Of a stretch of 64,000 nucleotides of DNA, positions 2,880-57,289 are shown piece by piece. Source of the DNA: Natronorubrum sulfidifaciens JCM 14089 (GTDB lineage: Archaea; Halobacteriota; Halobacteria; Halobacteriales; Natrialbaceae); contig NZ_AOHX01000043.1 of NCBI RefSeq assembly GCF_000337735.1, forward strand, positions 48,799 to 112,798, in the 5' to 3' direction. The notes under the pieces are model-generated. The model did no database searches. It had not been told where the DNA came from and was given only the letters and a program-made list of their open reading frames with translations. Position 1 is the first letter of the stretch; each line of letters opens with the position of its first letter. A program made the position numbers and the translations under genes.

Positions 2880-3037
2880 ACACGCCAGATACTCGCGTTT
2901 ATTGATAAGAATGTGGATTTGAAATAGAGTCACAGACAGCGGGGAAACGGGTCTCGTTCATAGAGATGGGCTGTGGTCCCGACCACGGGTGGCAGCGTCG
3001 GTGATCGGCGGGCCGTGCCGACAGCAGCCCGTCTGAC

Positions 3038-3056
3038 CTGTCCGACAGTATATATG
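3038..3056 (+). promoter_or_regulatory. Palindrome adjoining TATA box of the M24 peptidase gene
   Basis: CTGTCCGACAG is a near-perfect dyad (arms CTGTC/GACAG around one base) that runs directly into a TATA-like AGTATATATG. The ATG of the peptidase gene at 3080 lies about 27 nt after the TATA centre, so the mRNA is probably leaderless. The dyad sits where the BRE would lie, so it may be an operator. Fourteen bases of it (CTGTCCGACAGTAT) recur at both ends of the palindromic element at 54968-55075. Confidence 0.5.
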
Positions 3057-3079
3057 TGATCGTCTGCTACGTCTCCGGC

Positions 3080-4267
3080 ATGAACGTAGACGTCGACCTG
3101 TCGCCACTGCGCGAGTCTCTCGAGGCCGAAGGCATCGACGGGTACTGCATCGACGCCGACGGATCGGATTCAGACCAGCGATACGTCTCCGGCTTCACCG
3201 CGCCGGACCCCTACCAGACACTCGTGACGGCTGACGGCGTTCACCTGCTCGTCTCCGGCCTCGAGTACGGCCGCGCGAAGGCGGAGTCGAGCGCCGACTC
3301 GGTGACGCGCCGATCCGCGTACGACTATCGGGACCTCGTCGCCGAACACGGCCCCTACGAGGCCAAGCATCGACTGCTCGCGGCGTTTCTCGAGGATCAC
3401 GGCGTCGACTCGGTCGCCGTCCCGCGGAGCTTCCCGACGGGAACGGCGGACGGGCTGCGAGCTCGGGGCCTCGAGATCACGGTCGAACCCGAGGGGATCA
3501 TCGAGGGGATTCGAGCGACGAAAACCGAGTGGGAAATCGAGCAGATCCGAGCGAGCCAGCGCGCCAACGAGGCCGCGATGGCGACCGCCGAGTCGCTGCT
3601 CGCGACCGCCGACGTCGAAGACGGCGTGCTCGTCTCCGACGGCGAACCGCTCACCAGTGAGCGCGTCAAGACCGAAATCGAAATCACGCTCTTGCGACAC
3701 GGCTGCGGCCTCGACGACACCATCGTCGCCTGCGGGGCCGACGGCGCGGACCCGCACGATCGGGGGAGTGGGCCGCTCGAGGCCGACGAACTGATCGTGA
3801 TCGACATCTTCCCGCGGGACAAGGAGACGGGCTACTTCGCGGACATGACTCGCACCTTCGCCCGCGGCGAGCCGAGCGAAGAGGCTCGACGGCGCTACGA
3901 GGTGACCAGAGAGGCGTACGAAGCCGCCCTCGAGGCCGTCGAGGCGGGCGTCACTGGCGCGGACGTCCACGACGCGGCCTGCGATGTACTCGAGACGGCC
4001 GGCTACGAGACCCTACGGAGCGATCCCAGTACGGAAACCGGCTTCATCCACAGCACGGGCCACGGCGTCGGCCTCGACATCCACGAGGCACCGAGCGTCT
4101 CGCCCTCCGGCGGCGAGCTCGAGGCCGGCCACGTCATCTCGATCGAACCCGGTCTCTACGACCCCGCGGTCGGCGGCGTTCGGATCGAGGATCTGATCGT
4201 CGTCACCGAGGACGGCTACGAGAACCTGACCGATTATCGAGTCGGACTCGAGCCAACTACCGAGTAG
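3080..4267 (+). CDS. M24 metallopeptidase, Xaa-Pro dipeptidase/aminopeptidase type
   Basis: 395 residues. Probably cleaves the bond before proline in peptides. An N-terminal creatinase-like domain (about 1-125) is followed by the pita-bread catalytic domain. All five dinuclear metal ligands are visible: Asp in VIDIFPRD, Asp in FADMTRTF, His in HSTGHGVGLDIHEAP, Glu in SIEPGLY and Glu in VRIEDLIVV. The ATG at 3080 is preferred over the in-frame GTG at 3056 because a TATA box lies about 25 nt upstream, which fits a leaderless mRNA, and because homologues begin near this point. Cytoplasmic; no signal peptide. Pro-specificity is inferred from the family. Confidence 0.9.
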   Translation: MNVDVDLSPLRESLEAEGIDGYCIDADGSDSDQRYVSGFTAPDPYQTLVTADGVHLLVSGLEYGRAKAESSADSVTRRSAYDYRDLVAEHGPYEAKHRLLAAFLEDHGVDSVAVPRSFPTGTADGLRARGLEITVEPEGIIEGIRATKTEWEIEQIRASQRANEAAMATAESLLATADVEDGVLVSDGEPLTSERVKTEIEITLLRHGCGLDDTIVACGADGADPHDRGSGPLEADELIVIDIFPRDKETGYFADMTRTFARGEPSEEARRRYEVTREAYEAALEAVEAGVTGADVHDAACDVLETAGYETLRSDPSTETGFIHSTGHGVGLDIHEAPSVSPSGGELEAGHVISIEPGLYDPAVGGVRIEDLIVVTEDGYENLTDYRVGLEPTTE

Positions 4268-52407: not shown

Positions 52408-54324
52408 ATGACGATTCGCTCAATTCCTGTTGCCGACCGTGTCACCGACGCCTTCTTCGCACTCGATACGGACTTTCGCTTTACCTATCTTAACGAGCGC
52501 GCCGAAACCCTGCTGAAACGCTCCCGTGAGGAGCTGATCGGTCGGGTGATGTGGGATGAGTTCCCTCAGACTGTCGAAACCCAGTTCCCCGACGGCTTCC
52601 ACCGCGCGATGGACGAGCAAGTCCCCGTTTCGTTCGAGGTGTACCATGCCCAACTCGAGACGTGGTTCGAAGCCCGTGCGTATCCGTCCGAGACCGGCCT
52701 CTCGGTCTACATGCGCGACGTCACCGAGCGCAAGTCACAGGAGACGACGCTCGCCCAGCACGCCGCCGTCGTCGAGGCCGTCTACGACGCGATCCTCACG
52801 CTCGACCGCAACCGCGAACTCGTCACCGTCAACAGCGCCATCGAGGAACTCCTCGGCACCGATCGCTCGGACCTCATCGGCGAACACGTCGAGACGCTGA
52901 CCCAGCAAGCGGGGATTTCGGACACCGATGCCGTCGAGATCGGTCGGGCGATCACCGACGTCGACGTCGGCAACGCCGACAGACGCCAACTCGAGGTGTC
53001 GTTTACCGCCGCCGACGGGAGCGATCGGGTCGGCGAGTTCCGGTTCGTGCCGATCGAAGACGACCACGCGACCGTCGCCGCCGTCATCCGGGACGTCACC
53101 GACCGCCATGAGTACGAACGCGTCGTCACGTCGCTGCACGAAGTCACCCGGTGGCTCCTCGAGTCGGACGACCCCGAGGAGATCTGTGCGGTTGCCGTCC
53201 ACGCCGGCGGCGATCTGCTCGATCTCCCGATCAGCGGCGTCTGGTTGCTCGACGACGAACAGGGGTATCTCGATCCCGTCGCCGGAACGGCCGGTGCACA
53301 CGAGGAGTTCGGCGGGCTCCCACGCTTTTCCCCCGGCGAGGGACTCGTCTGGGATGTCTTTGAAGACGGCTCTGTGACACGGTTCGACGATCTCGAGGAG
53401 AGATCGGGCCTCTACAATCCCGACACCCCGATCCGATCGGAGATCATCGCGCCCATCGGCACCCATGGGGTGCTCATGACGGGGTCGTTGGCCGTCGACC
53501 ACTTCGACGAGACCGACGTCGACCTCGTCTCGATCCTCGTCGAGAACACTCGTGCAGCGCTCGATCGAGCGACCCGCGAACGCGTGCTTCGGGAGCGAAC
53601 AGCCGAACTCGAACACCGGAGCGAGCGCCTCGAGTCGGTCGCCGAAATCCTCTCGAACGATCTGCAACAGCAGCTGTCGGCCGTCGCCGACGCACTCGAC
53701 GACGGCGACGACGCGACCGACGAGTGGGAGTTTCCGCTGGCGGAGGACTCGGTCGACGCCACGCTCGACCGGGCCGAAGGACTCGTCGACGATATCCGCG
53801 AGTTCGCCCGAAACGCCTCGGCCGTCGGCCCGCGCTGTCGGATCGACCTCGAGACGGCGATCGACGACGCACTCGAGCGATCACGCCTCGATGGCGACCG
53901 CGATCACGTCATCGTCGAGCAGTCGGCGACGCTTCGAGCCGACGCGGAGCGATTCGGCCGCCTGCTCGAGACGGTGTACAACGACGTTGCGGCCCGCGCC
54001 GACGGCCCAGTGACGATTCAGGTCGGCGTCGTCGGCCTCGATGACACGGATCGCTCTCGAGGGCTGTTTATCCGAGACGATGCCACGACCCGTCCACCAG
54101 CGATACGGTCTCACGAGGTCGACTCGTCGACCGGTGTCGTCGCCGAGAGAGCGGCCGATGGGCTGGGACTGACACTCGTCAAAGCGATCGCCGAAGCCCA
54201 CGACTGGACGTTCACGGTCGATCCCGGCGACACGGGTGGGACGAGACTCGAGATTCGCGATCTGACGACGCTCGAAAAACGCCCGCAAACAGGCTACAAA
54301 AGCGGCTCGGACTCGAGGTCCTGA
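52408..54324 (+). CDS. PAS-PAS-GAF sensor protein with degenerate histidine-kinase core
   Basis: 638 residues. PAS 1 (about 8-115: DAFFALDTDFRFTYLNERAE), PAS 2 (about 120-235: AVYDAILTLDRNRELVTVNS), GAF (about 240-385). The H-box region reads EILSNDLQQQL, with Asn417 at the phospho-acceptor His position of halophilic kinases (ILSHDLRNPL type). The ATPase half keeps a G2 box (DGLGLTLVKAIAEAHDW, Gly585) but the N box (LLETVYNDVAARADG) and the G1 box (FIRDDATTRPPAI) are altered. Likely a sensor without autophosphorylation. Its 3' end overlaps the HalX regulator gene by 31 bp, tail to tail. Confidence 0.85.
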   Translation: MTIRSIPVADRVTDAFFALDTDFRFTYLNERAETLLKRSREELIGRVMWDEFPQTVETQFPDGFHRAMDEQVPVSFEVYHAQLETWFEARAYPSETGLSVYMRDVTERKSQETTLAQHAAVVEAVYDAILTLDRNRELVTVNSAIEELLGTDRSDLIGEHVETLTQQAGISDTDAVEIGRAITDVDVGNADRRQLEVSFTAADGSDRVGEFRFVPIEDDHATVAAVIRDVTDRHEYERVVTSLHEVTRWLLESDDPEEICAVAVHAGGDLLDLPISGVWLLDDEQGYLDPVAGTAGAHEEFGGLPRFSPGEGLVWDVFEDGSVTRFDDLEERSGLYNPDTPIRSEIIAPIGTHGVLMTGSLAVDHFDETDVDLVSILVENTRAALDRATRERVLRERTAELEHRSERLESVAEILSNDLQQQLSAVADALDDGDDATDEWEFPLAEDSVDATLDRAEGLVDDIREFARNASAVGPRCRIDLETAIDDALERSRLDGDRDHVIVEQSATLRADAERFGRLLETVYNDVAARADGPVTIQVGVVGLDDTDRSRGLFIRDDATTRPPAIRSHEVDSSTGVVAERAADGLGLTLVKAIAEAHDWTFTVDPGDTGGTRLEIRDLTTLEKRPQTGYKSGSDSRS

Positions 54325-54875
54325 TAGAGCCGCCGATAACTCCCTTGATCGAGGAATTCCGTCATCGTCTCTTCGATGCGGACACGAGACAGTGCGAGTT
54401 GATCCTCTAGCCGTGCGTACTCCGCGCTCGATTTGCGCTCGGCTTCGGTTTTCTCGGCATCGAGCAGGGCTTTCGTCGAGGCGAGCGAGAAAAACTCCTG
54501 TAGCTGTTCGTCGTAGCTCGAGCGCAACACCAGTTGCTCGACGATTCGGGTCAGTTCGTCTCTCGAGACCGGTTTGACGAGATAGTCGTCGAACCCCATT
54601 CCGATGACGTCGAACGCCGGTTCGACAGCGGTAACCATCGCCACCCGACACGCCAGCTCGCGCTCCCGGAGCGTCGCCAGCAGCGTCTCACCCGACAGCC
54701 CGGGCATTCGTCGATCGAGAAGAACGATATCGACCGTCTCGTCGATGGCAGTGAGTGCCGTGTCGCCATCGGACACGGTCTCGACGGCGTACGTCTCCTC
54801 GAGCCAGGTGGCATAGAGGTCTGCGATGTCGGGCTCGTCGTCGACGATCAGGACGGATGGCGTCTCAGTGGTCAT
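54294..54875 (-). CDS. HalX-domain response regulator
   Basis: 193 residues. Receiver domain with acidic pair Asp12-Asp13 (LIVDDEPDIA), phospho-acceptor Asp54 (IVLLDRRMPG), Thr82 and Lys101 (DDYLVKPVSRDELT), all intact. A C-terminal HalX module (SSYDEQLQEFFSLASTKALL, ERKSSAEYARLEDQLALSRV) follows, a haloarchaeal output domain. No DNA-binding domain. Convergent and overlapping with the sensor gene, so not in its operon. The upstream region carries the left end of the palindromic element. Confidence 0.92.
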   Translation of the reverse strand: MTTETPSVLIVDDEPDIADLYATWLEETYAVETVSDGDTALTAIDETVDIVLLDRRMPGLSGETLLATLRERELACRVAMVTAVEPAFDVIGMGFDDYLVKPVSRDELTRIVEQLVLRSSYDEQLQEFFSLASTKALLDAEKTEAERKSSAEYARLEDQLALSRVRIEETMTEFLDQGSYRRLYQDLESEPLL

Positions 54876-54967
54876 AGCTCTCTCCGAGAGTGGTTCATCT
54901 CCCGAATTGTCTCGAGACTATATCAAAATATCGGGTAGTCGGACGATTCCGACGCGAGCGACGCTTA

Positions 54968-55075
54968 TACTGTCGGACAGAACGACGTGAAGATCGGTCG
55001 CTCTACTGCGGCCGTCTCCGACGGTGACGGCCGCGAATTCGCGACCGACTTCGCATTGACTTCTGTCCGACAGTA
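54968..55075. mobile_element. 108-bp MITE-like palindromic element
   Basis: Perfect 15-bp terminal inverted repeats TACTGTCGGACAGAA and TTCTGTCCGACAGTA. Nested inner pairs CGGTCGC/GCGACCG (54995-55001 and 55041-55047) and GCGGCCGTC/GACGGCCGC (55008-55016 and 55026-55034) make almost the whole element one imperfect palindrome. It is flanked by the 3-bp direct repeat TTA (54965-54967 and 55076-55078), as after insertion with a TNA-type target duplication (known for the IS1031 group of IS5). The right TTA is the complement of the purL stop codon TAA. It has no coding potential. It could alternatively be a bidirectional terminator hairpin. Confidence 0.6.
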
Positions 55076-57289
55076 TTACTCGAGGCCGTCTTCGATGGTC
55101 GAGCGGTGGTCGTCGATCGCCGCGGCGTCCGTCGTGATCGTCTCCGAGCCGACGTCGATCGTCAACTCACCGTCGTCGGTCGCCGTCCCGAGTTCGACCA
55201 CCGGGGCGACGCCGTCGAACGCCGCTGCAACGGCGTCGGGCGAGTCGGTCTGAATCAGGACCCGACCCGGCTGTTCGTGGAAGAGGACAGCCGATTCGTC
55301 TCCACTGTCGGGGACGGGAAGCGAGACCTCGAGACCAGCATCTTCGGTGACCATCTCAGCGAGCGAGACAGCGAGCCCACCGTGACTGATGTCGTGAACC
55401 GCAAGCGTCGACTCGTCGTTGGCCACGTCGGCCAGCGTTTCGATGACGGCGGCGGGGTCGGCCGGCAGTTCGGGGAACCCGTCACTGCCATCGAACTGGG
55501 CGAGATACTCCGAGCCACCGAGTCGGAGGTCGCCGGCCTCGAGGCCGACGTCGCCGACGAGCAACAGCGTGCCTTCCGATTCGACCGACAGCGGCGGGGC
55601 GTCGTAGCCGTCTTTGGTCCCGACCATCGCCAGCGTCGGCGTCGGCGGGATCGGGCCGGCGACGGAGTCGTTGTACAGCGAGACGTTCCCGCCAACGACC
55701 GGCGTCGACAGTGTCGAGCACATGTCCGCAAGCCCGTCGACGGCACCCTTGAAGCCGCCGTACACATCTGGTTTCTCGGGGTTGCCGCCGTTGAGACAGT
55801 CGACGGCGGCAAGCGGCGTCGCGCCTTTGGCTGCGATGTTCGTCGCGTTCTCGAGGGCGATCGCTTTCGCCCCGACGTACGGGGCAACGGCAGTCCAGTT
55901 CGGTGCCGCACCGGAGGAAATAGCCAGCCCTTGCCCGATCTCGCGGCTATCGCCGCTCGATTTATCCGCGGAGTGTGGCTCCGCGCTCGCTTCTCGGACA
56001 GCGATAATCGCCGCGTCGTCGCCCGGCCCAACGCTCGTGCGGACGCCGACCTCGTGGTCGTACTGTCGGTAGACCCACCGTTTCGAGGCCGTGTTCGGAC
56101 TCGAGACGACCGTCTCGAACGCCGCCTCGAGGTCGACGTCGGGCAGGTCGGTCTCGGGTTGGTCGACGGGTTCGCTCTCGAGGTCGTTCATCGGCGCGCC
56201 TTCGCCGAGGAAATAAGCGTCGACGTCGACGACCGTTTCGCCTTCGAACGTGCAGGTGTAGTTCTTCTCGGTGACGTCGCCGATGACCGAACAGCCGAGA
56301 TCGAAGCGCTCGGCGATCTCACGGACGCGGTCGACGTTCTCGGGTTCGACTTCGTAACACATCCGCTCCTGGGATTCGGCCAGCAGGATCTCCAAGGCGT
56401 TCATGTTCGGCTCGCGCTGGTGGACGCGCTCGAGTTCGATGTGTGCGCCGAGACCGCCTTTGGCGACCAGTTCGCTCGAGGCACCGCCGAGGCCGGCGGC
56501 ACCGAGGTCGCGGGCGGATTCGATCAGCTGCTCTTCGACGAGCTGTTCGTTGGCCTCGATCAGCAGCTTCTCGGCGTAGGGGTCGCCGACCTGAACGGCC
56601 GGTCGATCCTCGGTTTCGGCGTCCTCCGCGAGGTCCTCGCTGGCGAAACTCGCACCGCCAAGCCCGTCGCGGCCGGTGCCGTTACCGACGAGCACCAGCT
56701 TGTTGCCGGGCTCTTGGGCGACGGCGGTGACGAGCCGTTCCTCGTTCGTGAGGCCGACGCAAGCAACGTTCACCAGCGGATTACCCTCGTAGTCGGGGTG
56801 GAAGTCGACGCTGCCCGCGACCGTGGGCACGCCGATACAGTTGCCGTAGTGGCTGATCCCTTCGACGACGCCCTCGAAGAGGTATTTCGAGTGTTCGTCG
56901 TCGAACTCGCCGAAGTACAGCGAGTCCGCAAGCGCGATCGGGTAGGCACCCATCGAGAGGGTGTCCCGGACGATCCCGCCGACGCCCGTCGCGGCCCCGT
57001 CGAACGGGTCGACGTAGGAAGGGTGGTTGTGGCTCTCGATTCCCATCGTGATGTAGGTGCTCGAGCCGTCCTCGTCCTCGTTTCCGGGCAGCGCGACGAC
57101 TGCTGCGTCATCACCCGGCCCGATGACGACCTGCTCGCCCTCGCTGTCGAACGCGGAGAGCAGCGGTCTCGAGGAGCGGTACGCGCAGTGTTCACTCCAG
57201 AGGTTCTCGAACAGCGCGACCTCTGCCGGCGTCGGCTCTCGCCCCAGCTCAGAAACGACGAGCTTGTGGTCCGAATCGGCAAGACTCAT
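55076..57289 (-). CDS. purL: Phosphoribosylformylglycinamidine synthase subunit PurL
   Basis: 737 residues. ATP-dependent synthetase component for FGAM formation in purine biosynthesis, working with PurQ and PurS (not here). [19 protein letters not shown] starts the catalytic region, [40 protein letters not shown] (ATP/metal site) and [19 protein letters not shown] are the first half; [17 protein letters not shown] and [17 protein letters not shown] are the repeated second half. Short archaeal/Bacillus-type PurL. Its stop codon is the TTA flank of the palindromic element. Confidence 0.97.

Follow-up and report, generated by a model that had tools for sequence, protein, structure and literature searches.

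A gene of Natronorubrum sulfidifaciens JCM 14089 encodes a sensor protein with asparagine at the position of the phospho-acceptor histidine, and it overlaps the gene of a HalX response regulator. Is this protein a kinase in decay, a kinase whose histidine lies elsewhere, or a maintained protein that signals by other means? We addressed this question in the window (the whole stretch of DNA that was analysed, 64,000 nucleotides) and across related genomes.

Domains and motifs of the sensor

The 638-residue product is the translation of positions 52408-54324 on the + strand, and its H-box stretch runs E413-I-L-S-N417-D-L-Q-Q-Q-L. The features of the gene pair, in window coordinates, are as follows.

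52408..54324, + strand: sensor pseudokinase gene, PAS-PAS-GAF-DHp-like-CA-like, 638 aa (Pfam and translation; homology to orthologues from residue 1)
52435..52734, + strand: PAS domain 1, residues 10-109 (Pfam PAS_4, 3.2e-24)
52786..53103, + strand: PAS domain 2, residues 127-232 (Pfam PAS_9, 9.1e-18)
53167..53565, + strand: GAF domain, residues 254-386, with the family-specific His265 and Cys260 (Pfam GAF_2, 3.2e-16)
53599..53815, + strand: DHp-like two-helix domain, about residues 398-469 (alignment; AlphaFold2 helices 368-431 and 443-469)
53656..53658, + strand: codon of Asn417, the phospho-acceptor His position (His in 0/84 orthologues and 34/34 paralogues)
53833..54267, + strand: degenerate HATPase-like CA domain, about residues 476-620 (N box and G1 lost, G2 kept, lid predicted to be disordered)
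54294..54875, - strand: REC-HalX response regulator gene, 193 aa, Asp54 intact (Pfam Response_reg 9.4e-22, HalX 8.4e-18)
54294..54324, no strand assigned: 31-bp convergent overlap of the sensor and regulator genes (rare in relatives)

An earlier note on this DNA had described the PAS and GAF domains and the G2 box as sound, the N and G1 boxes as altered, and Asn417 as standing at the phospho-acceptor position; Pfam, translation and alignment with paralogues bear out all of these points. The PAS_4, PAS_9 and GAF_2 matches are strong, and the G2 box is retained as GLGLTLV. The N box of the window sensor is LLETVYNDVAARAD, its counterpart in paralogues being LFENLFRNAVEHG, and G1 reads DDATTRP, against DDGPGIP in paralogues. 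With 19.1 bits, the window sensor stays below the Pfam gathering cut-off for HATPase_c (26.4); among six members of the sensor family scanned, only one (L032, 37.7 bits) scores above it.

The predicted fold is nevertheless that of a kinase core. The AlphaFold2 model preserves both DHp helices and, in the CA domain, the alpha/beta sandwich (pLDDT mostly above 80 in this domain); the ATP-lid stretch (about residues 567-585) is disordered. Foldseek matched the core most closely to solved histidine kinase cores, at E-values of about 1e-9. Ordered by E-value, DivL (4q20) comes second and RetS (6dk8) fourteenth; as the scores are close, this rank itself says little. Judging from sequence, the DHp-like and CA domains are probably kept as a fold in which autophosphorylation at the normal residue would be impossible and ordinary ATP binding improbable. 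Weak nucleotide binding by the sensor is conceivable, as its G2 box is intact and G1 still has its Asp.

Absence of the histidine across orthologues

To separate orthologues from paralogues, we searched the proteins of 61 relatives and ran a profile against 293 genomes of the order. The profile scores are bimodal: orthologues reach at least 592 bits (plus one truncated copy, G096, with 393), and paralogues at most 392. An orthologue is present in 62 of the 63 sampled genomes of the window's family, the Natrialbaceae (G015 is the exception; G008 and G007, of the same genus, are the closest relatives of the window genome). Beyond this family, orthologues occur in seven f7 genomes (one of them Halostella pelagica), two f10 genomes (Salinarchaeum) and one f3 genome.

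Among the 84 orthologues, the window protein included, residue 417 is Ser in 23, Asn in 22, Thr in 13, Glu in 9, Gly in 7, Asp in 4, Arg in 4, Lys in 1 and Ala in 1, and His in none. Around it, Leu415 is invariant (84/84), Ser416 is found in 78 and Asp418 in 75. In contrast, the 34 best-scoring paralogues all carry His in the H-box column, together with the N-box Asn and DxGxG. At the equivalent of N-box Asn526, Asn occurs in 4% of the orthologues (most have Asp) and in 100% of the paralogues; the only orthologues with it are those of the Salinarchaeum branch plus a small number of others. The G1 box keeps its Asp in 88% of the orthologues and its glycines in 8% and 2%, while the paralogue glycines are at 100%.

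A substitute for the missing residue was sought in the DHp-like helices of the 84 orthologues, and no conserved His was found there; where the window protein has His403, 74 of them have Arg. Of the C-terminal histidines, only His598 is strongly conserved; it belongs to the CA domain, and ordinary kinases conserve it to the same degree. Because the DHp helices hold no conserved His, we rule out another histidine as phospho-acceptor. The earlier note had read the sensor as a possible pseudokinase, a reading to be abandoned if a conserved His could be aligned with the H box, and had proposed looking for this His in relatives. No such His exists in the orthologues, and since it is missing from all of them and its loss is ancient, the pseudokinase reading is firmer than first proposed. 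Compared with a histidine kinase (HisKA plus HATPase_c), the protein has the DHp-CA fold and lacks the His, the N-box Asn, the DxGxG of G1 and an above-threshold HATPase_c score; as in a histidine pseudokinase, the kinase fold is retained and the catalytic residues are lost throughout the orthologous group.

Two proteins that a pattern search had returned as lacking an H box, L049 and L054, in fact carry AHDVRNP and SHDLRNP, respectively. Separately, the genome that contains the window encodes a second histidine kinase-like protein (L209, G000:C61:25978-26286, + strand) with Arg for the H-box His (IVRRQLRNDI), which is unrelated to the sensor family.

The His-less proteins make up one side of a single branch in our tree (SH-aLRT 100, in a quick tree built without bootstrap). 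From the sequences compared here, the sensor family is one of old, maintained pseudokinases, and the loss of His is older than the split of at least four families. The Salinarchaeum branch (L038, L121) has no His and still retains DDG and the Asn of the N box, which fits a loss of His before the decay of the ATP site, in this one branch. Overall dN/dS (Nei-Gojobori) is 0.08-0.23 in six close orthologue pairs; by domain, with estimates from few changes, it is 0.05-0.26 for the DHp-like domain and 0.09-0.39 for the CA-like domain, the fastest. The fast evolution of the CA-like domain (up to 0.39) would equally fit a domain that is slowly losing importance.

Several core residues set the family apart from the 34 paralogues. 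Namely, Leu415 is found in 100% of the orthologues (Val in paralogues), as are Arg476 and Arg510; Arg530 is found in 97% (His in paralogues) and Glu465 in 95% (0% of paralogues). In the GAF domain, Cys260 is present in 100% of the orthologues versus 29% of the paralogues and His265 in 96% versus 0% (window about 53185-53202), and Leu281 and Gly303 are likewise fixed, unlike in paralogues. Cys260 and His265 form a possible ligand or redox site.

The HalX regulator and the locus

The neighbouring regulator, described earlier as normal and as keeping Asp54, is indeed so: both REC and HalX exceed their gathering scores, and 73 of 73 regulator relatives carry Asp at the position of Asp54. In four genomes (L014, L034, L114 and L115), the rest of the receiver domain has diverged, with the sensor still present; for example, the conserved Lys is replaced by Ala in L014. 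These four regulators are possible pseudo-receivers.

All 67 adjacent sensor-regulator pairs measured are in convergent order, and this pairing of the sensor with a REC-HalX regulator is of long standing. The 31-bp overlap reported for the window (54294-54324) is real; it is created by a C-terminal extension of the sensor, namely its last ~13 residues (window 54282-54324), which are missing in the nearest relative, L002. Yet the median stop-to-stop gap is +24 bp, and only 6 of the 67 pairs overlap (by 31, 31, 8, 8, 8 and 8 bp). As the overlap is not conserved, the antisense effects once proposed for it find no support, and we reject it as a conserved antisense device.

A recurrent gene order is seen across families: Lrp, aminotransferase (AspAT), (amidase), (OCD, ornithine cyclodeaminase-like), sensor > < regulator, purL. 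The regulator has disappeared from between sensor and purL, with the sensor kept, in G010, G018, G021, G022, G024, G035, G145, G175, G189, G250, G257 and G300. No trace of a regulator remnant was found between the two genes in the regulator-less loci checked, and a loss that leaves a remnant is thus rejected for these; G018 has no close HalX relative anywhere. In G015 and G058, the regulator is still beside purL and the sensor is gone. Since each gene occurs without the other, the pair is associated but not obligate.

Between purL and the regulator gene lies a perfect 16-nt inverted repeat, ATACTGTCGGACAGAA...TTCTGTCCGACAGTAT (window 54967-54982 and 55061-55076, with 78 nt between the arms). 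The sequence ACTGTCGGACAGAA, allowing up to 1 mismatch, has 59 copies in the genome versus 2 for its reversed control, and these often form inverted pairs ~60-170 bp apart. By its sequence and distribution, this repeat resembles a dispersed element of the MITE or REP type.

Proposed mode of action and its alternatives

Our analysis makes it fairly likely that the sensor is a cytoplasmic histidine pseudokinase that senses through its PAS and GAF domains and acts through protein contact, as DivL, RetS and NifL do. Without an acceptor residue, its signal is probably passed by contact with partner proteins, and a conserved dimer and docking core that lacks chemistry makes binding the simplest mode. 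A ligand, or a redox or light signal, at the PAS/GAF domains would shift the conformation of the DHp and CA domains; the DHp surface would then bind a partner, either a receiver domain or a different kinase, and alter that partner's phosphorylation or output. The adjacent HalX regulator, chosen by position, is most likely the first candidate partner, and a kinase other than the sensor would phosphorylate it. Repeated loss of the regulator from loci that keep the sensor makes a second partner likely, either a canonical kinase or a different HalX regulator, or else rewiring to another HalX protein. A putative role in titrating or modulating other kinases, as the earlier note suggested, is plausible.

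The closest parallels are bacterial. DivL of Caulobacter crescentus likewise combines multiple PAS domains with a DHp-CA core in which the acceptor His is replaced across orthologues (4q20, TM 0.60); this core reads phospho-DivK, no kinase or phosphatase activity is needed, and the CA domain and a phosphorylated core are dispensable (PMC4211667). Unlike the sensor family, where the position is variable and the N and G1 boxes are lost, DivL has a conserved Tyr and the N, G1, F and G2 boxes; Tyr occurs at this position in 0 of the 84 orthologues. DivL also has no GAF domain, and sequence kinship between the two is shown only at the level of the kinase superfamily. NifL of Azotobacter vinelandii, with tandem PAS domains and a kinase-like C terminus, controls its partner NifA by direct binding, without kinase activity (PMC8063818). 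It differs in keeping the H-motif His and a nucleotide-binding GHKL domain and in having its partner as an operon neighbour rather than a convergent receiver protein; the neighbours of our sensor are the REC-HalX gene and purL, not an AAA+ activator of the NifA type.

Among archaea, nonenzymatic histidine kinase-like proteins that keep the His, have no HATPase domain and show no kinase activity have been described (PMC5847659). The sensor family is their reverse, with the His absent and a HATPase-like fold present. The same census of archaeal two-component systems lists HalX as without documented function (PMC5847659). Canonical haloarchaeal PAS/GAF kinases (L040-L059 and L124-L138, except L135) have the same GAF-DHp-CA layout at 27-36% identity and, unlike the sensor family, all keep motifs of the SHDLRNPL, ENLFRNA and DDGPGI types. 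HVO_1356-1358 of Haloferax was considered as a studied homologue and set aside, since these genes encode a Bat-type regulator and a sensor box kinase and no match to our arrangement was established. A tentative extension, which we regard as doubtful, is a kinase core run in reverse: it would sense whether HalX regulators are phosphorylated, or dock on other kinases, and relay that state under PAS-PAS-GAF gating, as an independently arisen archaeal counterpart of DivL.

The alternative that fares best places the contact elsewhere: the sensor would form a heterodimer with, or dock on, a canonical histidine kinase, and its HalX neighbour would be incidental. RetS of Pseudomonas, also kinase-like, reportedly modulates another kinase by dimer contact, and its core is among the folds nearest to ours. 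The ChrS pseudokinase of Corynebacterium, the product of a laboratory frameshift, acts with the kinase HrrS (PMC9491836); neither protein has the sensor's domain order. The survival of the sensor in many genomes after regulator loss, the conservation of the DHp-like helices that would be the interface (dN/dS 0.05-0.26) and the at least 12 His-bearing kinases encoded in the same genome are consistent with such docking. Nonetheless, no kinase gene adjoins the sensor in any locus examined, and the convergent pairing with HalX is kept in most genomes, which leaves this alternative unlikely, if still worth weighing.

A phosphatase-only protein, which would dephosphorylate the HalX regulator through the acidic residue after the H position and have no kinase activity, is improbable. 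The acid at H+1 is widespread (Asp418 in 75 of the 84 orthologues, Glu in 4), and Gln at H+5 in 58 of 84 recalls DxxxQ, the phosphatase motif of HisKA_3 kinases. However, this Gln is not invariant, and some members have Pro, His or Arg at H+1. HisKA-type phosphatases need Thr or Asn at H+4, and it is the loss of this residue (Asn in 4% of orthologues versus 97% of paralogues) that makes the role less likely.

Two further proposals are both very improbable: that residue 417 is itself phosphorylated, as its being Ser or Thr in 36 of 84 orthologues might suggest, or that antisense RNA from the 31-bp overlap regulates the pair. Position 417 is also Gly, Lys, Arg, Ala, Glu or Asp and the ATP site is degenerate, and overlap is confined to 6 of 67 pairs. 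Decay into a function-less, drifting kinase, which the comparatively fast CA-like domain and the multiple motif losses might recall, is scarcely credible and already contradicted by open frames in 62 of 63 family genomes, dN/dS well below 1, fixed clade-specific residues and a loss that came before at least four families separated.

The protein is therefore of a known kind, a histidine pseudokinase; what is new is that it is archaeal and family-wide, varies freely at the acceptor site and stands beside a HalX regulator. Only a few pseudo-histidine kinases are known, all of them bacterial, and a literature search on archaeal and histidine pseudokinases and HalX, with few subscription journals covered, returned no account of the sensor family. 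Present in nearly all sampled Natrialbaceae, having arisen once and having a regulator as its conserved neighbour, the family would demonstrate that archaeal signalling, too, uses dead kinase cores as stable parts, and it offers a test case for the role of uncharacterised HalX regulators. Automatic annotation would label such proteins sensor kinases, which would be misleading.

One further candidate for a His-less member, L135, from another family, is actually a PAS-PAS-GAF-Bat-HTH protein (335-2833). It has its N-terminal half in common with the sensor (342 bits to the profile), and a REC-HalX gene likewise follows it (2904-3500). This arrangement may reflect one PAS-PAS-GAF input module joined to differing outputs near HalX regulators.
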